A stretch of DNA of 34,983 bases from Nitratiruptor tergarcus DSM 16512. Its GTDB lineage: Bacteria > Campylobacterota > Campylobacteria > Campylobacterales > Nitratiruptoraceae. Location of the stretch: the NCBI RefSeq assembly GCF_027946175.1, contig NZ_AP026672.1, positions 1 through 34,983 on the forward strand, written 5' to 3'. Positions 1 to 18,271 of the stretch are shown here, one piece after another (positions within the stretch are counted from its first letter, which is position 1; every line of letters starts with the position of its first letter). The position numbers were made by a program, and so were the translations under genes. Below the pieces are notes generated by a model. The model did not search any database. It was not told the DNA's origin and was given only the letters and a program-made list of their open reading frames with translations.

Positions 1-614
1 ACACAATGTTGCTCGTAAAATAGCTGGGCAGTCATATAATATCAATGGATATTTTGTCTACTATGGAGATTCAAATCCAGAGAATTATGATCCTTATGCC
101 TGGATATATGTAAGTAAATATGGATCTTTTGTAGCCAAACTAGATGGATTTGATGGAACATATCTTCGCTGGGTAAGATTAAATTCTAATAAGATGCATA
201 TCAAAACATTAGAATCTGTATTGATAGAGAATGGAAAAATCACTTTTGGAAATGCTCTTGAACAAAACAGCTCTCAATCCTCTAGTGATAGCGTGAGAAC
301 ACTGCAGCTTATCCAGAAGGCACACAATGTTGCTCGTAAAATAGCTGGGCAGTCATATAATATCAATGGATATTTTGTCTACTATGGAGATTCAAATCCA
401 GAGAATTATGATCCTTATGCCTGGATATATGTAAGTAAATATGGATCTTTTGTAGCCAAACTAGATGGATTTGATGGAACATATCTTCGCTGGGTAAGAT
501 TAAATTCTAATAAGATGCATATCAAAACATTAGAATCTGTATTGATAGAGAATGGAAAAATCACTTTTGGAAATGCTCTTGAACAAAACAGCTCTCAATC
601 CTCTAGTGATAGCA
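1..614 (+). repeat. 321-bp coding tandem repeat, copies 2 and 3
   Basis: The sequence starting at base 1 recurs from base 322, a period of 321 bp or 107 codons. The copy starting at 34663 precedes these by exactly 321 bp if the ends are joined. The copies look identical by eye over their shared length and diverge only at about 614, where the Ser tract begins. Such identity points to recent duplication or ongoing homogenisation. The repeat explains why the assembly broke here. Confidence 0.9.
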
Positions 615-859
615 GCAGTTCATCAAGCAGCAGTTCATCAAGCAGCAGTTCATCAAATAGCAGTTCATCAAGCAGCAGTTCATCAAGCAGCAGTTCATCA
701 AGCAGCAGTTCATCAAGCAGCAGTTCATCAAGCAGCAGTTCATCAAGCAGCAGTTCATCAAGCAGCAGTTCATCAAGCAGCAGTTCATCAAGCAGCAGTT
801 CATCAAGCTCTGTGGAGTCATCTCAAGAGAGTGTGAACGGAGCTATACCTCATGTATAG
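1..859 (+). CDS. Giant Ser-rich exoprotein A, C-terminal part (continues from 32996-34983 across the circle)
   Basis: The reading frame is open from base 2 and closes at TAG 857-859. The frame and the sequence continue exactly from the gene that starts at 32996 and runs off the right end, giving a joined product of 948 aa. This part holds two of three copies of a 107-residue unit containing the GYFxxYG...AWIY...KLDGFDGTYLRW domain, also found in the 3908 exoprotein and the subtilisin. A tract of 13 five-Ser units follows, one of them with an Asn. The C-terminus is GAIPHV, a member of the short tail motif shared by five proteins here. No membrane anchor follows, so secretion rather than anchoring is likely. 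The exact number of 321-bp repeats may be wrong if the assembly collapsed them. Its role is unknown; a secreted, possibly glycosylated surface or matrix protein is inferred. Confidence 0.8.
   Translation, partial: HNVARKIAGQSYNINGYFVYYGDSNPENYDPYAWIYVSKYGSFVAKLDGFDGTYLRWVRLNSNKMHIKTLESVLIENGKITFGNALEQNSSQSSSDSVRTLQLIQKAHNVARKIAGQSYNINGYFVYYGDSNPENYDPYAWIYVSKYGSFVAKLDGFDGTYLRWVRLNSNKMHIKTLESVLIENGKITFGNALEQNSSQSSSDSSSSSSSSSSSSSSSNSSSSSSSSSSSSSSSSSSSSSSSSSSSSSSSSSSSSSSSSSSSSSSSSSSSVESSQESVNGAIPHV
611..805 (+). repeat. 15-bp microsatellite-like repeat encoding poly-Ser
   Basis: Thirteen tandem units of AGCAGCAGTTCATCA, each encoding five Ser. One unit carries AAT for Asn. All units stay in frame, so gain or loss of units changes tract length without frameshift. 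The same unit occurs near 34233-34260 and 34552-34580. Confidence 0.95.
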
Positions 860-1033: not shown

Positions 1034-1783
1034 ATGCGAAAACTCTTTTTATTGAGTCTTATTGCTATCTCTCTTTTTGCTATAGATATAAAAATCTCTC
1101 CAGATAAAAATATTACTGTTTCTTATCAAGATACAAAAGCTATCAAGACTTTTTATCAAGAGGTATTTAAATTTCGCCTTGCAGATGAGGGTGCATATAA
1201 ACTGGCTGAAGAGAATCGTATATTGGCCAATGCATATATCAAAAGATATGGTCTTGATAATAACGACATTGCAAGAATTAAAGTAGAAACTGAATTATAT
1301 TTAGCAAATCATATGGTAAAAAATATTCAAAACAGTATCAAGCTTTCTGATAAAGTACTCTATTCTTATTATATAGATCACAAGGATCAATTTAAGGGTA
1401 GCGATAAAGTTGATCTTGTAATCTTCTATTTTAAAGATCCAGAAAAAGCGGTAGATTTTTATATAAAAGCAAAAGGAAAAACACTTGAAGAAGCAAAGAA
1501 AATAGCTTCAAAAGATATAGTAATTAAAGAGTATAAAAATCTAGATATAAAAAAGATGAAACCATTTTTTCAAAATATTATACAAAAATATGGCCCAAAA
1601 CACTTTTTGCCACCTATCTTTGATGAAGTGAGCTCAGTTTCTTACATTCAAGATTATCACAAAGCACAAAAATATAAAAAATTTGAAGATGTAAAAGAGG
1701 AGATTCGTAAACTTCTTTATAGTAAAACATTCTTAAGAGAAAGAAATAAGATTCTTTTGCAATATAAGTCAGGTAAAAAATGA
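1034..1783 (+). CDS. PpiC/SurA-like periplasmic chaperone, cassette B
   Basis: A 249-aa protein with a signal peptide (about residues 1-16, ending LFA). A helical N-terminal half contains ENRILANAYI and IARIKVETELYLA, and a SYYIDHKDQFK segment resembles the linker into a parvulin domain in SurA/PpiC proteins. The C-terminal FEDVKEEIRKLL helix is also typical of that family. The parvulin core is short and poorly conserved, so isomerase activity is doubtful and a chaperone role is more likely. An AAGG ribosome site precedes the ATG. The stop overlaps the next start (ATGA). The paralogue is at 30137-30901. Its place at the head of a secretion cassette suggests it holds or folds the cassette proteins in the periplasm. 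Confidence 0.6.
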   Translation: MRKLFLLSLIAISLFAIDIKISPDKNITVSYQDTKAIKTFYQEVFKFRLADEGAYKLAEENRILANAYIKRYGLDNNDIARIKVETELYLANHMVKNIQNSIKLSDKVLYSYYIDHKDQFKGSDKVDLVIFYFKDPEKAVDFYIKAKGKTLEEAKKIASKDIVIKEYKNLDIKKMKPFFQNIIQKYGPKHFLPPIFDEVSSVSYIQDYHKAQKYKKFEDVKEEIRKLLYSKTFLRERNKILLQYKSGKK

Positions 1784-2238
1784 TACGTATAATATTTCTA
1801 ACTTTATTAATATTTTTTAGTGGATGTAATCTTAAATCCCCTGCACCCTATGTCACTATCAAAAATGTTGCAGTAGGCAAAGATATCAATATTACAAAGG
1901 CAGACAGACGATTGATACGAAGATTTCGAGAGTATTGGCAGTATCGTATTAATGGTGACTATGAACACTCTTATCTTTATGAATTACCTTATCAGAAGTA
2001 TCTAATACAACTAGAAAAATATAAGATGGAACATGGTGGAAAATACAAAGCTAAAAAAATAGTGTTACGCAATATTCGTTATGATGGAGGGTGTGCTATC
2101 ATTGATCGTATAGTAGTAATTGATGATAAAAATTTCACGAAAAAAGATAAATGGTGTTTTATCAAAGATAATTGGTATCATAAGTTTTATCAGTCAATTG
2201 TACCTCCAAAAACGATAGAAGAGGCACAATATCAGTAA
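1780..2238 (+). CDS. Small lipoprotein, cassette B
   Basis: A 152-aa protein with a hydrophobic N-terminus and a lipobox-like FSGC (Cys16), so it is probably a lipoprotein. No known family is recognised. Its landmarks are FREYWQYRINGDYEHSYLYE, a KDKWCFI segment and DNWYHKFYQSIVPP, all matched in the paralogue at 30901-31353 (NYWQARIKGDYKTSFSYE, KDKWIYI, GKWYHKFYQTILPP). The fold could be a small NTF2-like or DUF4878-like alpha/beta domain, judged only from the YWQ...GDY pattern. Its start overlaps the chaperone stop by 4 bp, so translation is coupled and the two may act together. Confidence 0.6.
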   Translation: MIRIIFLTLLIFFSGCNLKSPAPYVTIKNVAVGKDINITKADRRLIRRFREYWQYRINGDYEHSYLYELPYQKYLIQLEKYKMEHGGKYKAKKIVLRNIRYDGGCAIIDRIVVIDDKNFTKKDKWCFIKDNWYHKFYQSIVPPKTIEEAQYQ

Positions 2239-2277
2239 TTTAAACCCCACTAAAGTTAAAAATTATAAAATGTGTGT

Positions 2278-2361
2278 TATAATCGCTCTGTTAAAGTAAC
2301 GATAATAGAGTAGATAGTTTTATCTATCTAAAATACATCTTACAAAAAGGAAGGAGAGACT
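2278..2361 (+). promoter_or_regulatory. Promoter and structured leader of the surface-protein gene, cassette B
   Basis: The -10 TATAAT lies at 2278-2283. The leader contains AAGTAACGATAATAGA (2294-2309), identical to the leader at 31415-31430. A hairpin follows: TAGATAG 2311-2317, loop, CTATCTA 2324-2330. A very strong ribosome site, GGAAGGAGAG, stands just before the ATG. The other copy has a hairpin at the same place with a different stem sequence, so the structure itself appears to be conserved. An mRNA-stabilising 5' hairpin for a highly made protein is the simplest reading. Confidence 0.65.
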
Positions 2362-3753
2362 ATGAGTCTTAAAAAGGTAATTGTTTCAGGTGCTGCAGCA
2401 CTTGCATTGATGGGAACAGCTGCATTGGCGAGTGGGCCAAAAGTAGAGGTAGGGTGTGATGGAACAGGTGACTATCTTTTGGCACCAGTCTATTATGCAG
2501 TAAACAACTGGAAGACGGAGCTCAAGGTTGTTAACACTAATACTGAAAAAGCTATTGTTGCAAAAGTTGTTGTAAGGGAATCTAAAGAGAGCGAAGAGAT
2601 TATGGACTTCGCAATCTATTTAACTCCTGGAGATGTGTGGACAGGAACTCTTTATGATGATAATGGTGTTATAAAACTTAAATCAACTGATGATTCTATG
2701 ATTATCAGTGGCCAACAAGCTTCTCCAAACAATCCAATTGAGGTAGGAGTACACCCAAGAAGAGAAAATGTTCAAAATGGTAAATTCCATATGGAAAATT
2801 GGCATGGTTATGTAGAAATAATTGGATTGGCAAAATATGATCCGAGATGGTTTTTTCATTCTGGATGGAGCAAACCATGTGATGCTATGAATAAAATGGT
2901 TTTCTATAATGCTGTTAAAAATGGTAACAACCTTAATTTAAATATTAATGGCCACCAAGCAGAAGATGTGGGCAATGATGACCTTATGGGTAAAGAGACT
3001 CTCTACGCAGAAGCTTCTAGTGTAGATGGTAGAAGATATATGAGTCTTAATATGCTTGCTTTAGAGAATTTTGCAACTGTAGCAAATGGTACGAATGCAA
3101 TCGGTGGAGACACAAAAGTTCAAGACATTACAGATAAAGGGTTGCTTGCAATTGCAGAATATGATCAAGCAATCGCAAAATCTAATATTTTCGTAATGTA
3201 TGAGGGTGATGGTAATGATGTATATCCAATAAGAACACATTTTACAGTTCCAACAAAAAAATATTGGTTTGATGCTGGTACGTTGCCAACTGCATATGTT
3301 TCAGACAATCTTTATGGAGAGAGTCCATTTGTACCAAACACAGGTTCAGAATGGGCATACTCTATCAATCCAAGTGGTAATGAAGTTGTTGTAAGAGATA
3401 ACAGCGAACACTGCAATAAATGTAAAAAATCTTCAGAAGTTTCTGGTGTACCAAGTGAAAGCTGTGAAATCCTGATCCATGAAGAGGTTCACTTCTTTGA
3501 ATATACAAATACTAACCCAGCAAATCTCTACGATGCGGGTAATCCATATAGAGATTTGATGTTCAAGTCTGGTGGATGGGTTGATTTTGATCTTACAAAT
3601 AACAGTTATACAAATAATGATTATGCTTATACCTTTGAAGGAATGCCAATTGTGCCTACTACTTTCTATGCAAGAAATGTACAAGGGACTATTCTTAACA
3701 ACTGGCTCTATAATCAATATAAAAATGCAGTTACAATGTACATAGTTGAATAA
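2362..3753 (+). CDS. Abundant secreted surface protein, cassette B
   Basis: A 463-aa protein with a clear signal peptide (MSLKKVIVSGAAALALMG, cut near ALA-SG). The N-terminal domain has DGTGDYLLAPVYYA, ELKVVNTNTEKAIVAKVVVR and FAIYLTPGDVWTG, a beta-rich pattern seen in uncharacterised surface proteins of vent bacteria. Cys pairs near residues 353-370 (HCNKCKK, SCEIL) may form disulfides. There is no membrane segment and no C-terminal tail motif. The paralogue at 31488-32906 is closest in the first 100 residues and in the leader. The strong leader and ribosome site imply high expression, so a structural role in a surface layer, fibre or sheath is inferred. The function is not established. Confidence 0.6.
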   Translation: MSLKKVIVSGAAALALMGTAALASGPKVEVGCDGTGDYLLAPVYYAVNNWKTELKVVNTNTEKAIVAKVVVRESKESEEIMDFAIYLTPGDVWTGTLYDDNGVIKLKSTDDSMIISGQQASPNNPIEVGVHPRRENVQNGKFHMENWHGYVEIIGLAKYDPRWFFHSGWSKPCDAMNKMVFYNAVKNGNNLNLNINGHQAEDVGNDDLMGKETLYAEASSVDGRRYMSLNMLALENFATVANGTNAIGGDTKVQDITDKGLLAIAEYDQAIAKSNIFVMYEGDGNDVYPIRTHFTVPTKKYWFDAGTLPTAYVSDNLYGESPFVPNTGSEWAYSINPSGNEVVVRDNSEHCNKCKKSSEVSGVPSESCEILIHEEVHFFEYTNTNPANLYDAGNPYRDLMFKSGGWVDFDLTNNSYTNNDYAYTFEGMPIVPTTFYARNVQGTILNNWLYNQYKNAVTMYIVE

Positions 3754-3907: not shown

Positions 3908-6778
3908 ATGAGAATTTTACTGGGACTCCTTTTTGTTATAGCTACTTTAAGTGCTGAGTATTACCCTTCTTATCATCAGCTGGCTCCTACTAAAGGCCTT
4001 GTCAATGAGCTCAAAAATTTTACTATTAAAAACTTTTCTTTTTATAATGAATCTATAAGGTTTTCTGTTTATGGAGAAGCAAAAAAATACAAAAACAAAT
4101 GGTGTGGAAATAAATTTTATAATTTGAAAGTTTATGTGCCTAAAGGGATAAAAAAAACTTATATTACGATGACTCCTATACCAAATAGTAGCTATTTTGT
4201 TCTTGCTAAATTTATTCCACAAAATGCTCGTTTACCCGAAGGTTATACTATAGACTGGACAAACCCACAGGAGACAAAAAGTACAGATCAAGCAGATTAC
4301 TTTAGTGATAGACCCTATCTTATATGGGCACGTCATGGAGGTATACTGTTTGAGTTTCCAAGGTTCAAAGATACGATCTTACATCCAGAAATTTTGGAAA
4401 ATTTTCCTGGTGGCTGGATATATTTCAAAATCATTCAAGCATCGCAATTTGTAAATTCGCAATTCGGCCATATCGATAATCCTTCAATGGGTTTTGCTGT
4501 AAAATATTATTATGATAAGAGCTATAAAGAGTCTTTGAAAGATTTTCTTAAAACCACGAAATTTGATCCTCAAACGGGTGATCCTATTGACCACTTTTTG
4601 CAGATCCAGGAGAAAGCGCCAACCTGTAATAATTATGGTGCTTTGAGTACAATAAGTGGTGTTCCTGATAGCGATATTACGGGATATGAGTTTCAGTATG
4701 GTATTACACGGGATCCAAATCTTCCTGTACTCGATGTCGGTGCAGATAAAACAGCTATAAAAACTGGCGATAGTATCAACGTTAAAGCCACTGTCAATGT
4801 TGGTAATAAACCATTGCAAGGTGTACAGAATATAATCGATGTAGAACTCAATCAAAATACTACTGTGTCTAAAACAGGAATATTGTTAACAAGTGATCTT
4901 GGTTGTGCAAAATTACAAAATATCCAAATAAGTGATGATTTACAAAAAGGAGAGATACTCTATTCTGATAACGGTAACAACTGGTATAAAGAGAAAAACA
5001 ATAGTGCTATAGCTGGAAATATTCAATATGTTGGATATTTTATAGAAAATGGTGTTGACGTTAACAAAAAGATTACAATGGATATTATAGCAAAAATAGA
5101 TGATAGCTGTACGCCAAAAAATATTTTTACTTTGCAATATAGGTTGGATAATGGAGATGTAAAAGAGCTTACAAAATCGCTCTATTTTTCTCGAGCAGAA
5201 ACTACAACAAGTGGAGGAGATTCTTATACAGGCGGTAGCGCATATACTCTATCACAGTCAATGATTTCAACAAGCAGTTCAAGTGGTACAAAATCGAGGG
5301 CACAAATATATTGCGAGAGCCATGGTGGAACGTGGGCTGATGGAACATGTTTGAGTGGTAAGAAGACCCCTGTAGAAGATACATCTCACATAGACAGCAC
5401 TCAAGATTTTCCATCTATGAATGAAAATACAAGTATTTCAAGCAGTTCAAGTGGTACAAAATCGAGGGCACAAATATATTGCGAGAGCCATGGTGGAACG
5501 TGGGCTGATGGAACATGTTTGAGTGGTAAGAAGACCCCTGTAGAAGATACATCTCACATAGACAGCACTCAAGATTTTCCATCTATGAATGAAAATACAA
5601 GTATTTCAAGCAGTTCAAGTGGTACAAAATCGAGGGCACAAATATATTGCGAGAGCCATGGTGGAACGTGGGCTGATGGAACATGTTTGAGTGGTAAGAA
5701 GACCCCTGTAGAAGATACATCTCACATAGACAGCACTCAAGATTTTCCATCTATGAATGAAAATACAAGTATTTCAAGCAGTTCAAGTGGTACAAAATCG
5801 AGGGCACAAATATATTGCGAGAGCCATGGTGGAACGTGGGCTGATGGAACATGTTTGAGTGGTAAGAAGACCCCTGTAGAAGATACATCTCACATAGACA
5901 GCACTCAAGATTTTCCATCTATGAATGAAAATACAAGTATTTCAAGCAGTTCAAGTGGTACAAAATCGAGGGCACAAATATATTGCGAGAGCCATGGTGG
6001 AACGTGGGCTGATGGAACATGTTTGAGCGATGGGAGCGATTCAAGTAGCTCTTCAAGCAGCAAACATCAAGTAGGCGATGAGATAAGTGGAGTGACTCAA
6101 GGAACCAACTCTTCAGTATCGAAAATCTTTACTATCGCTCAAAAGTTGGCAAAAAGAAGCTTGTCTATCGATGGTTATTTTGCCCATTATGGTTCTGGAT
6201 CTTTTGACTGGATGTATAGAAGTGCAAAGAGTGGAAAAGTCTATAAACTTGAAGGCATGGATAAGAACGGCTATTTTAAATGGACAAATTTAACCGATTT
6301 TTTCAGCAAATCTTATGTAAGAAATGGAAAGATCATCATAGGCTCTCTTAAATCTACAAGAGATGTCAATAATGAGAAAACTTCAGCATTTATCAAAGAT
6401 CTTGAAAATAAAGAATTCCCTATCGATGGTTATTTTGCCCATTATGGTTCTGGATCTTTTGACTGGATATATAAAAGTGCAAAGAGTGAAAAAGTTTGGA
6501 AACTTGAAGGTATGGATGAGAGCGGCTATTTTAAATGGACGAAATTAACAGACTATTTCAATGAAATTAGAGTGCAAGACGATAAAATTATAATTGGTAA
6601 TGCTTTTGAAGAGACCTCTTCTGATACAACATCTTCTTTAAGCAATTCTGTTAGATCAGAAAGCTCTATTTCTTCAAGTTTATCACAAAGTAGTAGCTCT
6701 TCAAGCTCTACTCATTCGAGCTCATCAAGTATGCAAAGTAGCTCATCAAATAGTGTAAGTACTTTTCCAAGCATTTAA
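3908..6778 (+). CDS. Giant Ser/Cys-repeat exoprotein B
   Basis: A 956-aa protein with a signal peptide (about 1-16, TLSA-EYY). Residues 17-450 form a beta-rich region matching exoprotein A (32996): GGWIYFKIIQASQ against GGWLYISFAQAD, and FDPQTGDPIDHF against FDRYGDPVENF. Residues 456-707 hold four full and one partial 56-residue repeats, each with four Ser, a C-E-S-H-GG-T-W-A-D-G-T-C motif and DFPSM. Then come two GYFAHYGSGSFDW...KLEGMD..GYFKW domains (about 757-818 and 842-903), a Ser-rich tail, and the C-terminus STFPSI. No anchor is seen. The gene runs into the subtilisin gene with an 11-bp gap, which suggests the protease acts on it or travels with it. It is inferred to be a type II secretion substrate and possible O-glycosylation target. 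Confidence 0.75.
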   Translation: MRILLGLLFVIATLSAEYYPSYHQLAPTKGLVNELKNFTIKNFSFYNESIRFSVYGEAKKYKNKWCGNKFYNLKVYVPKGIKKTYITMTPIPNSSYFVLAKFIPQNARLPEGYTIDWTNPQETKSTDQADYFSDRPYLIWARHGGILFEFPRFKDTILHPEILENFPGGWIYFKIIQASQFVNSQFGHIDNPSMGFAVKYYYDKSYKESLKDFLKTTKFDPQTGDPIDHFLQIQEKAPTCNNYGALSTISGVPDSDITGYEFQYGITRDPNLPVLDVGADKTAIKTGDSINVKATVNVGNKPLQGVQNIIDVELNQNTTVSKTGILLTSDLGCAKLQNIQISDDLQKGEILYSDNGNNWYKEKNNSAIAGNIQYVGYFIENGVDVNKKITMDIIAKIDDSCTPKNIFTLQYRLDNGDVKELTKSLYFSRAETTTSGGDSYTGGSAYTLSQSMISTSSSSGTKSRAQIYCESHGGTWADGTCLSGKKTPVEDTSHIDSTQDFPSMNENTSISSSSSGTKSRAQIYCESHGGTWADGTCLSGKKTPVEDTSHIDSTQDFPSMNENTSISSSSSGTKSRAQIYCESHGGTWADGTCLSGKKTPVEDTSHIDSTQDFPSMNENTSISSSSSGTKSRAQIYCESHGGTWADGTCLSGKKTPVEDTSHIDSTQDFPSMNENTSISSSSSGTKSRAQIYCESHGGTWADGTCLSDGSDSSSSSSSKHQVGDEISGVTQGTNSSVSKIFTIAQKLAKRSLSIDGYFAHYGSGSFDWMYRSAKSGKVYKLEGMDKNGYFKWTNLTDFFSKSYVRNGKIIIGSLKSTRDVNNEKTSAFIKDLENKEFPIDGYFAHYGSGSFDWIYKSAKSEKVWKLEGMDESGYFKWTKLTDYFNEIRVQDDKIIIGNAFEETSSDTTSSLSNSVRSESSISSSLSQSSSSSSSTHSSSSSMQSSSSNSVSTFPSI
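5273..6028 (+). repeat. 168-bp coding tandem repeats (4.5 copies)
   Basis: Units start at 5273, 5441, 5609, 5777 and 5945, a period of 168 bp or 56 codons. The copies look identical by eye. The last ends after the second Cys of the Cys motif. Each full unit contains the CxxxGGxWxxxxC motif and DFPSM. Confidence 0.95.
6166..6600 (+). repeat. 255-bp-spaced duplicated GYF/DWIY domain
   Basis: A stretch of about 50 bp starting TATCGATGGTTATTTTGC recurs nearly identically at 6421, 255 bp on. It encodes IDGYFAHYGSGSFDW in both copies. The flanks have diverged more, so the duplication is older than the 168-bp repeats or the core is under selection. Confidence 0.85.
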
Positions 6779-6789
6779 GAGAATAAAAA

Positions 6790-8607
6790 GTGAGATATTT
6801 CCTTCTTGCTTTTCTCCTTCTCCCCCTCTTTGGGTGGGAGTATTACACTCACGGATCTTTACAAACTCTCACCCCTCTACCTAACCATACTCGCTCTCTT
6901 AATATACACTATTTCAAAGATACGAAAGAGAGAACCATTGGTGCTACCAATCGCATTATTTTGAAAAAAAGAGATAAATGTGCCAACAAATGGCTTGCAA
7001 GATATCCTTACAAAGAACTTCAAAACGGTGATATACTACTTTTTACGAAAAATATAGAGGAGACTTTTACTGTAGCCAAAGAGCTCTATGAGAGTGGATG
7101 TGTCTATTTTGCTCATCCGGACTTTTTGGTTCCCATAAAGATGAGAAGTTATGATCCTCTTTTTTCTCAACAGTGGAATTTTTACAATATAGGCCAAGGC
7201 TACTCTGTGCCAAATGTTGATCTCAATGTGTATGAAGCGTGGCAGTATGCAACAGGGAGAGGTGTCAAAGTAGCCGTGATTGATAACGGCTTCGATTTAG
7301 GACACGAGGATCTTCAAGGTGCCTTTGTAGACCAAATAGATTTGGTAGATAACGACAACAATGCTTCATTTGATAACAATTTCGAACTTCACGGCACTGC
7401 ATGTGCTGGACTTATAGCGGCGAGAAAAAATGGCAGAGGAGTGCAAGGGACTGCCTATGATGCAGCTCTCATTGGTATAAAGCTTATCGGTAATTATCCA
7501 GATGGAAGTGAGAAGTCTCTTTTTGTCTCCTCTATTGTGGCAGCTTTTTGGTATGCCAAGAGTCATGGGGCGGATGTGATTAATTGTAGCTGGGGAACAT
7601 ATGATGTAGCAGATGCAGTGAGAGATGCGATAAATGATGTTGCCTATAATGGAAGAGATGGAAAAGGAACAGTTATTGTCTTTGCAAGTGGAAATGAAGG
7701 AAGGGGAGACTGGTTTTGGGGAAATGATGAATCGGCTCTTCCCTCTGTTTTGGCAATAGGTGCTGTAACCAATCTTGGAGATGTTGCGTGGTATAGTAAT
7801 TATGGCCCAGAACTTGATTTTGTTGCCCCAAGTGGCGGAGGAACCCTTCGCATAGCTACTACAGATATTAGAGGAGTTTTTGGATATGCAGATGGTTCCT
7901 TTGGTCATCCAGACTACTGTTATGCTACAGATACGACAGGATTCAATGGTACTTCTGCAGCAGCTCCTCAAATAAGTGGAGTTGTCGCTTTGATGTTGCA
8001 AAGAGATCCAGAGCTTACAAGAGATAAGATAGTAGCTATTTTGAAACAGACTGCAAGAAAAATAGGTGGTGATATTTATGACGAACAAGGACACAATGAC
8101 TATTTTGGTTATGGTCTTGTAGATGCTAAAGCAGCTGTAGAAGAGGTGATACGAAGAAAGGTGCAAAAAGATGTAGTCAACAAAACTTTTGCTCTTAGTG
8201 GCTATTTTTTCCATATAGGAGATGGAAAATTTGATTGGATATATGTAAGCAAAAATCTAAAGTTTGTTTGTAAGTTGGAAGGCATGGATGAACATGGATA
8301 CCTTCGATGGAATATTTTGCAATCTTCAAAAAAAAGAGGTTTTGATACTATCTCTTTAGATGGTCCCGTCATAACTTTTGGCAAGAGTTTGCAAACAGGA
8401 GCTTTATATCAGCAACTTGCTCATAGAAGTTTTGTTATAGATGGAGATTTTGTCCATTATAGTACAGGGGCATATGAGTGGATTTATATAGATAAAAATT
8501 CCTTGAAAAGTTTTAAGCTTGAAAGATTGAGTTATACTGGCTCATTTCTTTGGATTCCTCTAGATCTTTCATCTTATATAGAAAATGACAAAGTATCATT
8601 TAAATAG
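6790..8607 (+). CDS. Secreted subtilisin-like serine protease (S8) with two C-terminal GYF/DWIY domains
   Basis: A 605-aa protein starting at GTG 6790, with a signal peptide ending near FGW-E. Residues about 45-115 look like an inhibitory propeptide, ending CVYFAHPDF. The catalytic domain spans about 145-455. Asp165 (AVIDNGFD), His201 (HGTACAG), the oxyanion Asn302 (ASGNEG) and Ser389 (GTSAAAP) are all present, so the enzyme should be active. Two copies of the domain shared with exoproteins A and B follow at about 462-512 and 545-590, the second more divergent (EWIY, KLERLSYTG). It lacks the FPxI-type tail. It lies 11 bp after exoprotein B and is probably cotranscribed with it. Subtilisins with propeptides are common type II secretion cargo. 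Maturation of the exoproteins is a reasonable but unproven role. Confidence 0.92.
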   Translation: MRYFLLAFLLLPLFGWEYYTHGSLQTLTPLPNHTRSLNIHYFKDTKERTIGATNRIILKKRDKCANKWLARYPYKELQNGDILLFTKNIEETFTVAKELYESGCVYFAHPDFLVPIKMRSYDPLFSQQWNFYNIGQGYSVPNVDLNVYEAWQYATGRGVKVAVIDNGFDLGHEDLQGAFVDQIDLVDNDNNASFDNNFELHGTACAGLIAARKNGRGVQGTAYDAALIGIKLIGNYPDGSEKSLFVSSIVAAFWYAKSHGADVINCSWGTYDVADAVRDAINDVAYNGRDGKGTVIVFASGNEGRGDWFWGNDESALPSVLAIGAVTNLGDVAWYSNYGPELDFVAPSGGGTLRIATTDIRGVFGYADGSFGHPDYCYATDTTGFNGTSAAAPQISGVVALMLQRDPELTRDKIVAILKQTARKIGGDIYDEQGHNDYFGYGLVDAKAAVEEVIRRKVQKDVVNKTFALSGYFFHIGDGKFDWIYVSKNLKFVCKLEGMDEHGYLRWNILQSSKKRGFDTISLDGPVITFGKSLQTGALYQQLAHRSFVIDGDFVHYSTGAYEWIYIDKNSLKSFKLERLSYTGSFLWIPLDLSSYIENDKVSFK

Positions 8608-8636: not shown

Positions 8637-8654
8637 TATGCAAAAAAGTTGTTC

Positions 8655-10088
8655 ATGGAAGCATTGAAAAAAAATAGTATCTTTATTGCTTTTTTACTTC
8701 TACTTGGATTTTTCACCTACTTTTATAACTATCAAAATCCTCCTAAACAGTTTTGGGATGAAAATTATCATATTGCTTCAGCCCAAAAATATATTGATCA
8801 TGTAATGTTTATGGAACCACATCCTCCACTTGGAAAGATGCTTATAGCTTTGGGAGAAGTACTCTTGCATCCAAACAAAAATATAGACAAGAGTTCTTTT
8901 GACAAAACAGACTATATCAAACATTTCCCAAAAGGGATGAGTTATGCAGGATATCGCTTTTTCCCAGTTCTTTTTGCATGGTTTAATGTAGCTCTATTTT
9001 TTTTGATTTTATATGAGCTTACCAAGAACTCATGGATCTCATTTTTTGGTTCATTTCTTTATCTTTATGATAACGCCATTATTGTCCATAGCCGCGCTGC
9101 AATGCTTGAATCTATACAGCTCTTTTTTGTATTTGCTGCAATCTATTGGTTTGTCAAAAAATATAATGAATCAAAAGGCATTAAAGACTATCTCATTTTA
9201 GGTATTATAAGTGGCTTTGCGCTAGCTGTAAAAGCAAACAGTGCTATTTTATTTCTTTTGTGGGTATTATGGGTATTTAAAGATCTACGCTTGGGTGAAC
9301 GTATAAAACTTTTAACAAAAAGTATTAGCTATTTCGGTGGAGCAGCAGTAATATTTTTGAGCGTATTCTATCTCCATTTTGCTCTTGGGCAAAAAGTAAT
9401 AGACAATCGCTACTATGCAGCCTCGAAGGAATATAAAGAAATTATAAAAAAGGGAGAAACCGCCAATCCAAAATATTTTTGGATTATGTTAAGAGATAAT
9501 CTCAAATATATGAGTAATTACCAAAAGGGAGTACCAAGGCTGAATCTCTGTAAGCCTGGTGAAAATGGATCGCTTTTTATAGGATGGCCTCTTGGTATCA
9601 AAGCTATTAGTTATCGTTGGGAAAAGCATGGAAGTAAAGTGCGCTATATTTATTTGCAAGGAAATCCTGTAACATGGATGATAGGATTTATTGCAGTGAT
9701 TTTAAGCGGAGTACTTGTTTTAGCAGTATTTCTCTTTGGATTGCCGATAAGAAATCGCAAAATATTTGAGTATATTGTTGGATTTTTCTTTATCTATATC
9801 TCTTACATGATAGCTGTGGGGCAGATTCCAAGGGTGATGTATCTCTATCACTATTTTATACCTCTTACAATAAGCTATATCTTAGCGGTATTGCTTTTAT
9901 GGTATCTCTATGAAGAGGAGATCAGGGCAAAAAGCAAAATTGTGTGGTCAAGTATCATCATGATAGCTGCTGCTATCGTCTTTACATGGTGGTTCTTTAG
10001 TCCATTTACCTACTACAAGCCTCTTAATACGCAAGAATTCAATAAAAGGGTATGGTTTGACTACTGGAAGCTTCATGCGATTCGATAA
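8655..10088 (+). CDS. GT39-family protein mannosyltransferase-like glycosyltransferase
   Basis: A multi-spanning membrane protein (477 aa from ATG 8655; a TTG at 8649 would add two residues). The first lumenal loop has FWDENYHIASAQKYI, with the acidic Asp-Glu pair of PMT/GT39 enzymes, then EPHPPLGKMLIALGE. SRAAMLESIQLFF is also a family hallmark. Many hydrophobic segments follow. Enzymes of this family move a sugar from a polyprenyl-phosphate donor onto Ser/Thr on the outer face of the inner membrane. It heads a compact cassette with a GtrA flippase and a donor-making GtrB-like enzyme. The Ser-tract exoproteins nearby are the obvious candidate acceptors (inference). A lipid or glycan acceptor, as for ArnT-type relatives, cannot be excluded. 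Confidence 0.8.
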   Translation: MEALKKNSIFIAFLLLLGFFTYFYNYQNPPKQFWDENYHIASAQKYIDHVMFMEPHPPLGKMLIALGEVLLHPNKNIDKSSFDKTDYIKHFPKGMSYAGYRFFPVLFAWFNVALFFLILYELTKNSWISFFGSFLYLYDNAIIVHSRAAMLESIQLFFVFAAIYWFVKKYNESKGIKDYLILGIISGFALAVKANSAILFLLWVLWVFKDLRLGERIKLLTKSISYFGGAAVIFLSVFYLHFALGQKVIDNRYYAASKEYKEIIKKGETANPKYFWIMLRDNLKYMSNYQKGVPRLNLCKPGENGSLFIGWPLGIKAISYRWEKHGSKVRYIYLQGNPVTWMIGFIAVILSGVLVLAVFLFGLPIRNRKIFEYIVGFFFIYISYMIAVGQIPRVMYLYHYFIPLTISYILAVLLLWYLYEEEIRAKSKIVWSSIIMIAAAIVFTWWFFSPFTYYKPLNTQEFNKRVWFDYWKLHAIR

Positions 10089-10659
10089 GCGCTGGGGACT
10101 TTTTGCTTTTGCTTTTACTCTTTGGCTATGGATAGGCTATAGTATTTATATCCACAGCGCAAAAAAGATTTTTAAAGTAACTATAATTCACTCCTCAAAA
10201 CCTCTACATACACTCAATGATAAAATCTATCCGGATAAAAAAGAGATGATATGGGTAGAGAAGATTTTCTTTCCAAGAGGAAATGAGTTAAAACATCCAA
10301 CATATGGGTATCTTGGTTATAAAAAAAATTTTGTCATGAGAATAGATGGTGATTTTTTACTTTCCAAAGATGCACCTCTAAAATTTGTGCTTTATTCTGA
10401 CGATGGGGTGCGTCTTGTCATCGATGGAAAAAATGTGCTTGAATTTTTACAAAATAGACCTTTTGGAAAAAGCGAGGGGATCATCTATCTTAAAAAAGGG
10501 AAACACCATCTCCATATCGACTACTTTCAAGGGTACGGGCAGCTCGGTTTAGTTGGATACTATGCTGTTTTAAACGGTTTAAAACAAATAATAAGTGATA
10601 ACAACAGTTTAAAACTTCTTGGAAATAACTCTCAAATAATAAAGTTTATAGAGCAATGA
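10075..10659 (+). CDS. Membrane-anchored PA14-like domain protein
   Basis: A 194-aa protein starting at ATG 10075, preferred because GGAAG stands 6 bases upstream. It overlaps the GT39 gene by 14 bp. One N-terminal membrane segment (about residues 8-26) is followed by a periplasmic domain with FVLYSDDGVRLVIDGKNVLE and GKHHLHIDYFQGYGQLGLVGYY. This is the SDDG...L.IDG...Y.G.G pattern of PA14 beta-barrel domains, which often bind sugars. In this cassette it may present the glycan acceptor or assist the GT39 enzyme. The PA14 match is by eye. Confidence 0.65.
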   Translation: MRFDKRWGLFAFAFTLWLWIGYSIYIHSAKKIFKVTIIHSSKPLHTLNDKIYPDKKEMIWVEKIFFPRGNELKHPTYGYLGYKKNFVMRIDGDFLLSKDAPLKFVLYSDDGVRLVIDGKNVLEFLQNRPFGKSEGIIYLKKGKHHLHIDYFQGYGQLGLVGYYAVLNGLKQIISDNNSLKLLGNNSQIIKFIEQ

Positions 10660-11021
10660 TAGGAAGATTTTTTATCGTTGGAGCTATCTCCACAGCTGTA
10701 GACTATGTGTTTTACTCTTTACTGGTTTTTTTGGGTGTGCACTACGCTTTGGCAATTATCATTGGATATATGATGGGGCTTGTGGTCAATTTTTTCTTAG
10801 CAAGAAAAACTGTCTTTACCAAAGGAAGTAGATTTGAAAAAGTACATCATGAGTTTTTAGCTGTATTTGGTGTTTCAGTATTGGCTGTGGGGCTCAATAT
10901 TTTGATCGTCTGGGCTTTGGCAAAAATAGGGCTTGACTACTATAGCGGTAGAGCAGTAGCATTGGTGGTTGTATTCTTCTTTAATTACTATGCAAGAAAA
11001 GGGTTTATCTATGTTGCATAA
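10656..11021 (+). CDS. GtrA-family membrane protein (putative polyprenyl-phosphate sugar flippase)
   Basis: A 121-aa protein with four membrane segments. It has the GtrA features RFFIVGAISTAVDY at the start, MGLVVNFFLARKTVF in the middle and FFFNYYARKGFIY at the end. GtrA proteins are proposed to flip polyprenyl-phosphate-linked sugars to the periplasm. ATGA overlap with the gene before and an 11-bp overlap with the GtrB-like gene after indicate one operon. Confidence 0.85.
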   Translation: MIGRFFIVGAISTAVDYVFYSLLVFLGVHYALAIIIGYMMGLVVNFFLARKTVFTKGSRFEKVHHEFLAVFGVSVLAVGLNILIVWALAKIGLDYYSGRAVALVVVFFFNYYARKGFIYVA

Positions 11022-11961
11022 AACATTTACATTGGCTATGGTGGTACCTTGCTACAATGAAGAGGAAGTATTGCCAAAAACAAAAAAGGAGTTAGAAAAA
11101 CTTCTCCACATTCTCATCGAAAAGGGGCTCATTTCACAAGAGAGCTTCATCTGCTTTGTAGATGATGGAAGCAAAGATAAAACTTGGAATCTCATAGAAG
11201 ATTTTGCAAAAGAGTCTCATATAAAAGGACTTAAGCTCTCGCGCAATTTTGGCCATCAAAATGCCCTTCTTGCAGGACTTTTCTATGCAGAAGAGCTTTG
11301 CGATGCAGCGGTTAGCATGGATGCAGATTTGCAAGATGATATAAGTGTAGTAGAACAGATGTGCCAAAAATATTATGAAGGGTATGAAATCGTTTATGGA
11401 GTGCGTAAAAAAAGAGATACCGACACCTTTTTCAAAAGAGCTACTGCAGAAGGCTTTTACAAACTCATGCGCTGGATGGGAGTCGATATTATAGAAAATC
11501 ATGCAGATTTTCGCCTCATGAGTAAAAGAGCGCTATCTTGGCTTAAAGAGTTTGAAGAAGTTAATCTATTCCTACGAGGAATCATCCCTCTTATCGGCCT
11601 TAAAAGTGATATCGTTTATTATGATAGAAAAGAGCGCTTTGCAGGAGAAAGCAAATATCCTCTCAAAAAAATGCTAGCATTTGCATGGGATGGGATCACA
11701 TCATTTTCCGTAGTCCCTCTTCGATTTATCACGATACTCGGAATTATCGTATTACTACTTAGTTTTGCGCTTTCCGTGTGGACAGTTGGAGCGAAACTGA
11801 GTGGAGTAGCAGTGTCTGGATGGACATCGATGATGCTCATTGTCCTCTTTTTAGGGGGTGTGCAGATGCTATCTATTGGTATCATTGGAGAATATATCGG
11901 TAAAATATATAAAGAGACAAAAAGAAGACCGAGATTTTTTGTAGAGAAAATAGAGCCATAA
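11011..11961 (+). CDS. GT2-family polyprenyl-phosphate glycosyltransferase (GtrB/DPM1-like)
   Basis: A 316-aa protein from ATG 11011, chosen because AAAAGGG stands 8 bases upstream; in-frame starts further up lie inside gtrA. The GT-A domain shows VVPCYNEEEVLP, VDDGSKDKTW and the metal-binding DADLQDD. SRNFGHQNALLAG and ENHADFRLMS are typical of the GtrB/DPM1 group. Two C-terminal membrane segments (about 230-300) anchor it. It should make the polyprenyl-phosphate-hexose donor that GtrA flips and the GT39 enzyme uses. The sugar (glucose or mannose) cannot be told from sequence. Confidence 0.88.
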   Translation: MLHKTFTLAMVVPCYNEEEVLPKTKKELEKLLHILIEKGLISQESFICFVDDGSKDKTWNLIEDFAKESHIKGLKLSRNFGHQNALLAGLFYAEELCDAAVSMDADLQDDISVVEQMCQKYYEGYEIVYGVRKKRDTDTFFKRATAEGFYKLMRWMGVDIIENHADFRLMSKRALSWLKEFEEVNLFLRGIIPLIGLKSDIVYYDRKERFAGESKYPLKKMLAFAWDGITSFSVVPLRFITILGIIVLLLSFALSVWTVGAKLSGVAVSGWTSMMLIVLFLGGVQMLSIGIIGEYIGKIYKETKRRPRFFVEKIEP

Positions 11962-14541: not shown

Positions 14542-15762
14542 TCACCCTTGGATATTGATAGAGAAGATTGGCAAGAGCATGGCGGTAATAATAAAACCTA
14601 TAATGCCTCCAACTATGAGCATCAGTGCTGGCTCGAGCAAGGATAAGAAGATAGCGATTTTATCTCTATTCTCTTCAAGATAGAGCTCAGAGAGGTTCTT
14701 GAGAATTACTGGTACCTGGCTTGTCTCCTCGCCAAGAGCAATCGCCTGGATAAAAGATCTATCTATAATATTGTCATGCTTAATTAAAGCATTGGAAAAT
14801 TTTGAGCCTTCTACCACTTTTTGAGCTGCTTCATCAAAAATCTTTTGAATAACAGAGTTTTTTAGTATTTTTGATGAGAGGCTGATCGCTTGCACAAAGG
14901 GTATACCAGACTGCAAAAGCACAGAGGCCATATAGGAAAATCGTGCAAGTTCTGAGACCTGAATAATTTTTCCAAGAATAGGGAGCTTGAGCATTAATAG
15001 ATCCACCATATATTTAAAGCGGCTGTTGTAGCGTAGCAGCAGTGAAAAGAGGATTGTGATAATGAGCAATCCTATACCAAGCTCCATCCAGTAGGATTTG
15101 AAAAAGTTGCCAAAATCTACAACAAACTGTGTAATTGGAGGAAGCTCTTGCTTCATCTGCACAAAAATAGAGGTAATCTTTGGCACTACATAGCTGATCA
15201 TAAATCCAACCATAAAAATGGAGACAATAATGATGAAGAGAGGATAGGCAAAGGCGCTTTGTATCTGCTTATTAATACGATCTTGTTCTTTTAAGAATGT
15301 AGCAAGCTCGTTAAGCACCTCTTCAAGGGTTCCGCTCTCTTCTGCAACCTTTATAGACTGTTTGTAGAAATTTGGTAAATCAATGATAGATTGGGCTTCC
15401 AAAGCCTGATAAAAACTCTTTCCTTCATCAAGATAGGTGATGACTGAGGAGAGAAAATTGTAGATCTTTTTGTTGCTGGCATACTGGCTTTGTGCTAGGC
15501 GCAAAGCATTTGCTATAGGAATACCTGCTTTAAGGTAGATAGAAAGATCGCGGCTCAGAGTTGCTAGCTCAAGGTTCGATAGAGAAATTTTTCTTTTAAA
15601 AGAAAAATTTCCAAAAAGAGATGGTGAGGTCTCTTTGATGGAAGTAAAAAGGATATTGCGTGATTGCAACCTCGTTTTTGCATCTGCTAAATCTGTAGCC
15701 TCTATAACGCCTTTGACCTGCTTACCACTTTTTTTATCAATACCTTTGTACTTAAAAATCAT
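14542..15762 (-). CDS. gspF: Type II secretion inner-membrane platform protein GspF
   Basis: A 406-aa protein from ATG 15762 (MIFKYKG). It has two GspF/PilC domains, each with the family's helical core. LSRDLSIYLKAGIPIANAL and IKVAEESGTLEEVL mark the first copy, ARFSYMASVLLQSGIPFVQAI and IALGEETSQVP the second. Three hydrophobic segments are visible (about 165-190, 215-240, 375-400). Length is typical of GspF. It lies 8 bp after the minor pseudopilin gene and ends a four-gene minus-strand operon. It should bridge the GspE ATPase to the pseudopilus base. Confidence 0.93.
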   Translation of the reverse strand: MIFKYKGIDKKSGKQVKGVIEATDLADAKTRLQSRNILFTSIKETSPSLFGNFSFKRKISLSNLELATLSRDLSIYLKAGIPIANALRLAQSQYASNKKIYNFLSSVITYLDEGKSFYQALEAQSIIDLPNFYKQSIKVAEESGTLEEVLNELATFLKEQDRINKQIQSAFAYPLFIIIVSIFMVGFMISYVVPKITSIFVQMKQELPPITQFVVDFGNFFKSYWMELGIGLLIITILFSLLLRYNSRFKYMVDLLMLKLPILGKIIQVSELARFSYMASVLLQSGIPFVQAISLSSKILKNSVIQKIFDEAAQKVVEGSKFSNALIKHDNIIDRSFIQAIALGEETSQVPVILKNLSELYLEENRDKIAIFLSLLEPALMLIVGGIIGFIITAMLLPIFSINIQG

Positions 15763-15770
15763 CCTCTGCC

Positions 15771-16316
15771 TTAAAAGTTGTATTGACTTGAATCTGTTGG
15801 GATCCACTCACTTGGATCAAAATATTTTTGTGCTTCACTAATAGAATCAACTACTTTTACTGGCTTCATATAGGCATAAAAGATATAAAATTTATCTTTA
15901 TACTCTACAATGTAACTGGAATTACTACCATTTGAAAAGAGTTCATAGGCAAAGCACACCTCTTGGGGATTACCATTTGCATCAAAAAGTGGAGGAAATT
16001 TTACAGGAGATAAAATACCATGAATATCAAAATCGTATACACTTACCTCTTTATCAAAAAACCCCTCTATCTTGTCTCTTCTTATTCCATCTATAAAAAT
16101 ATAGCACTCTTGACACTTATTGATGCAAGTAATTTTTGCACTTTCATTAAAATCATACTCCTCAAAAAGAGTCTTTATATCTTGCAGACCCAGTGACTTT
16201 GATAGATGCTCTTTGGTGTGAAGCTTTTGAATAAAGACACCATAAAGAATGGAGATAATAAGAATGACAATGAGAAGCTCAAAAAGTGTAAAACTACTTT
16301 TTGAGACAATCTTCAT
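15771..16316 (-). CDS. Minor pseudopilin, probably GspH-like
   Basis: A 181-aa protein with a prepilin N-terminus, SS-FTLFELLIVILIIS, with Glu at position +5. The residue before the cut would be Ser rather than the usual Gly. Beyond the helix (about 9-35) there is a globular domain with four Cys, including CINKCQEC near residues 59-66. By position next to gspG it is most likely GspH, but the globular part is not diagnostic. It overlaps gspG by 23 bp. Confidence 0.7.
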   Translation of the reverse strand: MKIVSKSSFTLFELLIVILIISILYGVFIQKLHTKEHLSKSLGLQDIKTLFEEYDFNESAKITCINKCQECYIFIDGIRRDKIEGFFDKEVSVYDFDIHGILSPVKFPPLFDANGNPQEVCFAYELFSNGSNSSYIVEYKDKFYIFYAYMKPVKVVDSISEAQKYFDPSEWIPTDSSQYNF

Positions 16317-16716
16317 AACTTATATCTTTGTTTTCATCTTTCCCGCCCTCTTTGCCATCTGCTCCAAGGGAAATGAGATTAAAGCCATCTTCTTTTTTGA
16401 CATAGATAAAAGGGTGTCCCCATGGATCTTTTGGTAGCTGGCCGTTAGAGAGGTAGCCTTTAGCAGAGTAGTTAGGGTACTTCTCTGGATCTGGATTTTT
16501 TATAAGTGCTTGGATGCCCTCTTCGGTATCTGGATAGTTTCCATTATCGAGCTTAAACATCTTGAGAGCCTGAGCAACACTCTGCATCTGTACACACACT
16601 AACTTTTGTTTTGCTTCTTCACTTTTTCCAATCAGATTTGGGAGCACAAGTGAAGCCAAAAGGCCAAGAATGATGATAACAATCATAAGTTCCATCAAAG
16701 AGAACGCTTTTTTCAT
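16294..16716 (-). CDS. gspG: Major pseudopilin GspG
   Basis: A 140-aa protein. The prepilin peptide MKKA precedes FSLMELMIVIIILGLLASLV, with Glu at +5 and Ala before the cut. The body has the GspG hallmarks NYPDTEEGIQALI, LPKDPWGHPFIYV and LISLGADGKEGGKDENKDI, the last being the calcium-binding loop region of GspG. Length is standard. It forms the main shaft of the pseudopilus. No prepilin peptidase is on the plasmid, so processing must use a host enzyme. Confidence 0.95.
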   Translation of the reverse strand: MKKAFSLMELMIVIIILGLLASLVLPNLIGKSEEAKQKLVCVQMQSVAQALKMFKLDNGNYPDTEEGIQALIKNPDPEKYPNYSAKGYLSNGQLPKDPWGHPFIYVKKEDGFNLISLGADGKEGGKDENKDISYEDCLKK

Positions 16717-16727
16717 ACTTTTTCCTT

Positions 16728-17324
16728 TTAACGTATACCAGGGAAAGGAGAGCGTTCCTCTGGCATTTTTGTTTGGGTTTGTATATTATCGGGATGATCA
16801 AAATCGATATCTACACGAAACTGGCTTCCTTGTTCTAAAGAAGCAGCTTCGGAGAGAAAAGATGCATCTAAAGTTTTAGACTCTTTTGTTTCGAGATGAG
16901 TAATGCGTAACTTCACATCAGGTTTATCAAGCACAACTTTTGGCACACGCATAACAAACTCTTTTCCACTCACTTTTCCCTCTATATAGGTATAACTGCT
17001 TGGATCTTTTTCCAATTTGATATTTCTATCTTCTGGGTTTTCATCAACAACTTGAATGAGATAGGTGTGGTAATGATCTATGGTGGCAGCTTTAATAGAA
17101 GGGTCTATCTTTCTTTGGGGCTTCGCTTTTTTTTTCTCTTTTTTGATAGAAGAGCTACTCTTTGTTTGCTTTTTTATGGTGATATCTTCTTCAACGGAAT
17201 TGGTAGATGTTTGCTTCATTGATGTCAAAGGAGATGTATCGTTCTTTGGTGAATAGAGAAAAATCCCCAGTCCTAAAATAAGGACAGCTGCACCAATACC
17301 CAGGATAACAATATTTTTACTCAT
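16728..17324 (-). CDS. Inner-membrane-anchored periplasmic protein with PFPGIR tail, first gene of the gspG operon
   Basis: A 198-aa protein with one membrane helix (about 5-24), a Ser/Lys-rich linker and a folded domain sharing DENPEDRNIKLE, EGKVSGKEFVMRVPK and KPDVKLRI with the 11973-12587 protein. The C-terminus SPFPGIR varies the tail motif by one extra Arg. It lies 11 bp before gspG and heads that operon, so it is probably a dedicated part of this secretion system. It does not match GspA, B, H or S in any way I can see. Confidence 0.6.
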   Translation of the reverse strand: MSKNIVILGIGAAVLILGLGIFLYSPKNDTSPLTSMKQTSTNSVEEDITIKKQTKSSSSIKKEKKKAKPQRKIDPSIKAATIDHYHTYLIQVVDENPEDRNIKLEKDPSSYTYIEGKVSGKEFVMRVPKVVLDKPDVKLRITHLETKESKTLDASFLSEAASLEQGSQFRVDIDFDHPDNIQTQTKMPEERSPFPGIR

Positions 17325-17338
17325 TACCTAATCTTTAG

Positions 17339-17358
17339 TATAATTTTGCGAAATTATA
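17339..17358. promoter_or_regulatory. Overlapping divergent promoters between the two gsp operons
   Basis: On the plus strand TATAAT lies at 17339-17344, toward gspK. On the minus strand TATAAT lies at 17358-17353, toward the anchored protein and gspG. The two -10 boxes are 9 bp apart, so the operons must share control and may compete for polymerase. Confidence 0.55.
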
Positions 17359-17374
17359 ACTTAAAAGCATTAAC

Positions 17375-18271
17375 TTGAAAAAATCTATCGTTTTACTCAT
17401 TACACTCGCTCTTATCGTTGCTATCTCCTCTCTTATCTACATAGGGTTCGAACTTGTAGACAAAAGTGCAAAAACAGTAGAAGGGAAGCATAATTTTCTC
17501 CAAAGCGTCTCTATGATCAACGATATCAAAAAAATCCTTGAACAAAACAAAAAAGATATTAATAGCACAGATGGTCTTGATCTACTCTTTTCTATGCCTA
17601 TCGATCTTAAGGCTGAAAATATAACAGTACATGTAGAGTTCTCTTCTGCAGCCACCGGCATAAACCCCAATAACTTTGTAAAAACCGTTAATAAAAAACA
17701 GCTTATCAATTCCCACTATATACTTTTATTCGATAGAATTTTGCAAAATGCAAATGTGCTCAACAAAGAGCTCTTTTTAGCGATGATTGAAGATACACTT
17801 GATAAAGATTTGGAAGAGCGATTTCCAGGAAGTGAGATAGCTCTCTATGACAGAAGATTTGCTCAAGGAAGTATTGAAAATTTTCAAAAGTTTCAAAAAA
17901 TCATAGAACACTATATAACATTGACACAAGATGGTAATATCAATAAAATCCCATGGGTAAAAATCTTAGGGTTTTTTAGTAAAAAAATAGATTTTAACTA
18001 TATCAATCCTATACTTTTACACTATATGCTTCCTTTCCTAGACAAGGAAGCATTGCAAAAACTTACAACAGACAAAGAAGGGGTATTTACAAAAATGAAA
18101 GAGCTGCATCTTTCAAAAGAGGATAAAGAGGAATTGAAAAAATATGATATTGCTTTTTATGTTCCTGTTATCAAAGTAGATCTTGAAATTGAAGAGAGAA
18201 GCAACAAAAGTTTTGCTCATTTCATTTATGACTTAACAACAGCAAAGGTGAAAGATATTGCAATTAGATAA
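17375..18271 (+). CDS. gspK: GspK-like minor pseudopilin
   Basis: A 298-aa protein starting at TTG 17375. It has an N-terminal hydrophobic helix (about 4-25) and then a soluble domain. GINPNNF (after SAAT), a helical LFLAMIEDTLD, and ERFPGSEIALYDRRFAQGSIENFQKF recall the GspK pattern of IN-N, a D-D pair and NG-L-S-DEL. The typical conserved prepilin cleavage motif is weak, as is common in GspK. Identity is supported by its place directly before gspL, as in canonical gsp operons. It should cap the pseudopilus tip with GspI and GspJ. Confidence 0.72.
   Translation: MKKSIVLLITLALIVAISSLIYIGFELVDKSAKTVEGKHNFLQSVSMINDIKKILEQNKKDINSTDGLDLLFSMPIDLKAENITVHVEFSSAATGINPNNFVKTVNKKQLINSHYILLFDRILQNANVLNKELFLAMIEDTLDKDLEERFPGSEIALYDRRFAQGSIENFQKFQKIIEHYITLTQDGNINKIPWVKILGFFSKKIDFNYINPILLHYMLPFLDKEALQKLTTDKEGVFTKMKELHLSKEDKEELKKYDIAFYVPVIKVDLEIEERSNKSFAHFIYDLTTAKVKDIAIR

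Follow-up and report, generated by a model that had tools for sequence, protein, structure and literature searches.

A lineage-specific domain on exported proteins of Nitratiruptor and its phages: a possible extracytoplasmic docking module

Two exoproteins and a subtilisin-like (S8) protease encoded on a plasmid of Nitratiruptor tergarcus DSM 16512 share a small repeated domain, which raises the questions of whether it belongs to a known family, where else it occurs and what it does for the proteins that carry it. The window, i.e., the whole stretch of DNA analyzed (34,983 bases), is a complete closed circular Nitratiruptor plasmid, contig 2 of a two-contig genome of 1,940,884 bases. Besides a nearly complete type II secretion gene set, it has two paralogous cassettes of secretion substrates, one ParA-like gene and two Rep-like genes. 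The genes considered here are located as follows (window coordinates):

32996-34983, plus strand: 5' part of the gene for exoprotein A, encoding the signal sequence, the exoprotein domain, Ser-rich linkers and domain copy 1
1-859, plus strand: exoprotein A gene, 3' part (domain copies 2-3, Ser-rich tail, C-terminal tag GAIPHV)
3908-6778, plus strand: gene for exoprotein B, 956 aa, with tandem 168-bp repeats that carry C..HGGTWADGTC and with the C-terminal tag STFPSI
6790-8607, plus strand: gene for the S8 (subtilase) protease, which has two C-terminal domain copies (PF00082, E 1.4e-46)
8649-10088, plus strand: protein O-mannosyltransferase (PMT) gene, adjoining the S8 gene (PF02366, E 1.3e-32)
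1034-3753, plus strand: genes for the cassette partners, namely a SurA-like exported protein, a lipoprotein of 152 aa and a DGTGDYL-type secreted protein of 463 aa
30137-32906, plus strand: second set of cassette partner genes, preceding the exoprotein A gene
within 14542-24210, minus strand: type II secretion genes gspF, H and G
within 14542-24210, plus strand: type II secretion genes K-like, L, M, N-like, C (PDZ), D and E
26615-27609, plus strand: gspI- and gspJ-like pseudopilin genes

The exoprotein A gene wraps round the ends of the window, its frame at 32996-34981 continuing in frame into 2-859 to encode 949 residues; only the circularity of the window joins the domain copies at its two ends in one protein. 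The S8 gene and most of the type II genes have matches, mostly at 50-96% identity, on plasmids of Nitratiruptor sp. YY09-18 (24.5 kb) and YY08-26 (35.3 kb). Orthologues of the S8 protease that keep both domain copies are encoded by pNitYY0918 (79.5%) and pNitYY0826 (60.8%), and the order of the cassette partners at 1034-3753 is unchanged on both of these plasmids and on contig C60 of genome G370.

Two other features of the plasmid proteins were observed. In the exoprotein B gene (5271-6027), the 168-bp unit occurs 4.5 times at 100% identity and encodes C-ESHGGTWADGT-C; other carriers of the domain (L014, L017, L037) have related Cys motifs, and a C-LPGxP-C motif likewise recurs. Proteins of one plasmid share a short C-terminal tag, which differs from plasmid to plasmid; outside the window it was seen at loci L051, L052, and L082. 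In the window it is found at the C termini at 859, 6778, 11973, 16728, and 30039: the exoproteins end in GAIPHV and STFPSI, membrane proteins in SALPHI and PFPGIR, and a Ser-rich lipoprotein in SALPHL, with internal DFPSI and LPHTG. The corresponding tags are AFGGIA, AFEGLGG, and AFEGIQ in YY08-26, VLPAGPGA and ILPTGPGS in YY09-18, and APSRP, APARP, and PPRPGEAVR in G370. Judging by sequence, this element looks like a plasmid-specific, co-varying recognition tag.

The first-pass annotation had counted seven copies of the domain, three in exoprotein A and two each in exoprotein B and the S8 protease, and all seven are present as one class of domain of about 80 residues, termed class I:

6119-6352, plus strand: exoprotein B, copy 1 (profile match 1e-29; also matched by the held-out profile)
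6368-6604, plus strand: exoprotein B, copy 2, the copy modeled with AlphaFold2 (profile match 1e-32; pLDDT 94.2)
8143-8391, plus strand: S8 protease, copy 1 (profile match 8e-27)
8395-8604, plus strand: S8 protease, copy 2, reaching the C terminus (profile match 5e-19)
34655-34921, plus strand: exoprotein A, copy 1 (profile match 1e-21)
34976-34983, plus strand: exoprotein A, copy 2, first bases, running on across the circle ends (profile match 1e-21 on the joined gene)
1-259, plus strand: exoprotein A, copy 2, rest
314-580, plus strand: exoprotein A, copy 3 (profile match 1e-21; 321-bp identical tandem repeat)

The interval first given for the domain, 6150-8607, holds the four copies of exoprotein B and the S8 protease, while the three exoprotein A copies sit at the ends of the window. 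These three are identical in protein sequence and lie in a 321-bp direct repeat of DNA. Profiles built without the protein in question recovered the copies of each: exoprotein A with a domain E of 9e-12 three times, exoprotein B with 2e-14 and 1e-17, and the S8 protease with 3e-19 and 4e-11. Whole held-out proteins scored 98-114 bits, against 11 bits or less for 600 shuffled proteins. Because held-out profiles recover the copies and shuffled proteins score far lower, these are not chance resemblances. The alignment and the structure model place the length nearer 80-85 than the 75 residues originally estimated, since the domain also includes a helix of about 12 residues at its N terminus.

Searches of family and structure libraries did not assign the domain to a named family, as the first-pass annotation had anticipated. 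Class I gave only chance-level matches, mostly to single members, in Pfam (20 members) and NCBIfam (53 members), and identity with a known family was rejected in the absence of any match above curated cut-offs in these libraries or to any PDB chain by sequence. RAG2_PHD and EGF_alliinase matches in exoprotein B fall on its Cys/Ser-rich repeats, outside the domain, and no stretch passes alone. Scans of exoprotein B, the S8 protease and single domains against NCBIfam found no type IX secretion (T9SS) sorting-domain family; LPXTG, PEP-CTERM, and GlyGly-CTERM models matched neither exoprotein B nor the S8 protease, which ends in the domain itself. The AlphaFold2 model of class I, based on 53 aligned copies, comprises one helix and six strands with a mean pLDDT of 94.2, consistent with the compact, mostly beta fold that had been expected. 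A fold match was defined as a Foldseek E of 0.001 or less or a TM-score above 0.5 to a PDB chain. The best E against the PDB was 0.45 for class I and 0.49 for the second class described below, with listed TM-scores of 0.35 or less, small domains being hard for Foldseek, and class I had no match at E ≤ 0.001 in a viral library. The predicted fold is thus apparently novel-looking, and the domain itself is apparently undescribed, no account of it having been found in the open-access literature.

A profile built from 20 copies in the N. tergarcus genome revealed many more on the chromosome. In total, 28 exported proteins carry the domain, 19 of them class I and nine class II. Class II is a fused pair, the first half of which has a Ca-site-like loop resembling YDFNHDGTIDKSDW; its AlphaFold2 model has a pLDDT of 90.5, and in Pfam (22 members) it yielded only chance-level and weak EF-hand matches. 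The similarity of the two profiles (hhalign probability 98.4%, E 5e-15) identifies class I and class II as sister classes. A hydropathy scan detected a hydrophobic N-terminal signal sequence in 25 of the 28 carriers, and those of the S8 protease and a 789-aa protein, both with non-ATG starts, were recognized by eye; the only carrier without a visible signal sequence is a 1109-aa protein in which the start of the gene is unclear.

The cargo of these proteins is diverse, including a subtilase, DUF285 repeats, PQQ and LVIVD propellers, a beta-helix, RCC1 and a serpin, and in relatives also a CAP-like region and trypsin. The bacterial serpin (L112:1106-3262; Pfam Serpin, 1.5e-103) carries an N-terminal class II pair, and a protein of G005 (L083:1607-3859) is similar to it. 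The earlier statement that the domain always lies C-terminal to the main domain is true of the three plasmid proteins and does not extend to the genome: among the 19 class I carriers it is N-terminal in nine and C-terminal in nine, and one consists only of two domain copies. Two or three copies are present in eight of the 19, while class II always occurs as a pair.

The taxonomic range is narrow. The domain was found in 12 of 16 genomes of the genus and in none of six genomes of two other genera of the family; among 397 genomes of the class, matches were restricted to the genus and G370, one genome from another family. A narrow peptide pattern, scanned over 84,980 species, hit two loci, both in unplaced Campylobacterota MAGs. 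Distant relatives of the DGTGDYL-type protein were seen in five further genomes, with no class I or II domain. Across the genomes covered, the domain appears to be a lineage-specific, modular, extracytoplasmic one.

Copies free of any cargo are encoded by phages. Phages NrS-4 (strain YY08-13) and NrS-5 (YY08-26) encode a 115-residue protein comprising a signal or membrane helix and one domain, the gene for which is located between those for a tail fiber and for holin-like and lysozyme proteins. The same arrangement is found in a prophage of genome G007 with integrase-, holin- and lysozyme-like genes:

L104:3935-4282 and L107:5465-5845: stand-alone domain copies beside holin (phages NrS-4/NrS-5 and the G007 prophage)

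No copy is present in NrS-1 and NrS-2, which come from strains without the domain, and in INPHARED the matches were confined to Nitratiruptor phages. With few phages and few hosts, this phage-host match could be a coincidence. A viral origin of the domain was rejected, as neither the class I alignment nor the phage protein gave a match in scans of IMG/VR. The domain-only phage protein is probably exported late in infection, and because it carries no cargo, it suggests that the domain by itself acts on a component of the host envelope. A phage product acting from within is known from T5, where the protein Llp jams the receptor from the periplasmic side; this is a parallel to the phage copies of the domain by analogy only (PMC9586334). 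A second parallel, again by analogy only, is that stand-alone SH3 proteins adjoin the lysis genes of T1-like phages (PMC13164509).

The function that we favor, with a probability of about 0.5, is that of an extracytoplasmic docking module for one common partner, with tandem copies giving avidity. It is preferred because the cargo is promiscuous, either terminus is used, copies occur in tandem and the phage copies are cargo-free. Placement at the N or C terminus is as expected for a binding module, and the two or three copies of class I and the pairs of class II are as expected for avidity. The linkage of the domain to the type II cassette in complete strains and in G370, described below, speaks for docking as well. 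Against it, the conserved aromatic residues may be just the hydrophobic core, and the four MAGs that carry the domain with no type II genes detected fit less well. According to this model, the carriers would be exported to the surface, presumably via the plasmid type II system, and held there by binding to a shared partner on the Nitratiruptor envelope or extracellular matrix. This partner would be the same for all carriers, tandem copies would strengthen the attachment, and the phage protein might compete for the partner or use it during lysis. The first-pass annotation had taken the sharing of the domain by the protease and its putative substrates as a sign of a common docking, sorting or wall/matrix-binding role; docking remains plausible from the sequences, while a special protease-substrate link is too narrow for a domain present on 28 proteins.

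The main rival is that the domain serves as a portable address for type II secretion. In that case the secreton (e.g., the GspC PDZ domain, the GspD N-domains or the pseudopilus tip) would recognize the folded domain and export whatever cargo is attached. The domain would then be sufficient for export at either end of a protein, as would suit recognition of a folded patch, and the bare copy of the phages could jam or exploit secretion. Exoproteins A and B and the S8 protease, encoded beside the type II genes, all carry the domain, and the plasmid is the only site of a type II GspD in the N. tergarcus genome. The distribution among strains points the same way. N. tergarcus and the YY09-18-like G010 both possess the type II plasmid, and in each the domain occurs on plasmid as well as chromosome; YY08-26 has it as read from its plasmid and phage only. 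Neither a domain copy nor the type II plasmid is present in the SB155-2-like genome, which is plasmid-free, or in the YY08-10-like genome, where the plasmid bears iron genes. In these named complete strains the domain tracks the plasmid type II cassette. The link is kept in G370, where one contig encodes GspE (73% identical), GspD (52%), the SurA-like protein, the lipoprotein, the DGTGDYL-type protein and an exoprotein with a class II pair at its end.

Several observations argue against such an address. The 463/472-aa DGTGDYL-type proteins of the cassettes and the Ser-rich lipoprotein lack the domain, a related type II gene set occurs in genomes G018 and G013 with neither cassette nor domain, and recognition by a secreton has no need for tandem copies. 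Strict dependence on type II genes was not established, as MAGs G002, G003, G005, and G009 carry the domain while plasmid-type secretion genes and the S8 protease were not detected in them, nor was the DGTGDYL-type protein in G003, G005, and G009. In G007 the plasmid-type S8 gene is present and gspD was not found; plasmid genes can therefore drop out of bins, and absence from a MAG is weak evidence. In the four MAGs the plasmid may have remained unbinned, or the carriers may stay in the periplasm. The expectation of a domain found mainly on secreted proteins of type II-positive bacteria thus agrees with the export of the carriers and with the complete genomes, while several MAGs, as binned, do not show it. 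On balance, a role as secretion address appears unlikely.

G003 and G005 also contain a pilus-like secretion cluster (L083, L084) with GspE/F-like proteins, pseudopilins, a 644-684 aa secretin and a large exported protein. Their secretins were rejected as plasmid-type, since they belong to this pilus-like system; such a secretin was not found in the N. tergarcus genome.

In place of a protein, the partner could also be a carbohydrate, such as matrix polysaccharide, lipopolysaccharide or the O-mannosyl glycans that the Ser-rich linkers are expected to bear; this proposal is in part a special case of docking. The conserved Tyr, Phe, and Trp residues, the tandem copies, the Ser-rich linkers and the nearby O-mannosyltransferase are consistent with it. 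However, the domain has no Pfam match, carbohydrate-binding families included, and Foldseek finds no such fold; carbohydrate binding is accordingly considered quite unlikely. The PMT is a possible modifier of the Ser-rich linkers. Downstream of the S8 gene, PMT, PA14 protein, GtrA-like, and GT2 genes (8649-11961) are found on all three plasmids, and their products may glycosylate the linkers.

About as unlikely is a purely passive role in folding or stability, in which the domain, as a cap or spacer without partner, would protect the exported proteins of a thermophile: the small, confidently predicted fold, its conserved hydrophobic positions and its occurrence at either end of many cargos would fit, but other members of the genus and family manage entirely without the domain, and the exported copies of two phage lineages, being free of cargo, have nothing to protect.

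About 28 exported proteins of a 1.9-Mb genome carry the domain, which none of the curated family libraries searched contains and which close relatives lacking the secretion plasmid do not have. It thereby provides a label and a starting point for much of the unannotated exported proteome of a vent genus. The copies in phages indicate that it is worth carrying for them. If docking to one partner is true, that partner would explain how the Nitratiruptor surface is built. If the domain were instead a type II address, the question of type II substrate recognition would become testable with a single 80-residue fusion, and the finding would be the more novel because type II substrates are said to have no feature in common (PMC10128026).

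Among known systems, the closest in kind is the C-terminal domain (CTD) of T9SS substrates in Bacteroidota, which is likewise a small beta-rich module linked to a secretion system and found on many unrelated secreted proteins of one lineage (PMC4804311). The T9SS CTDs are, however, C-terminal and removed, whereas the domain described here is N- or C-terminal, often in tandem, and occurs in Campylobacterota with a type II system. Envelope-binding modules of the SH3b type resemble it in being small, present on many enzymes and also found alone beside a phage holin (PMC13164509). Nevertheless, the domain has no Pfam or fold match to SH3 or other wall-binding families. LPXTG, PEP-CTERM, and GlyGly-CTERM are short C-terminal sorting motifs with a transmembrane tail, the last of them present on some type II substrates. 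They share with the domain the character of an element common to secreted proteins, and differ in that the domain is folded. DxDxDG-type loops relate class II to EF-hand-like Ca loops and FG-GAP repeats, with weak EF-hand matches in up to eight of 22 members (best 4e-4; scores given for single members are below curated cut-offs), whereas class I has no such loop. Modular domains of secreted proteins are thus familiar as a kind; the domain described here is apparently new.
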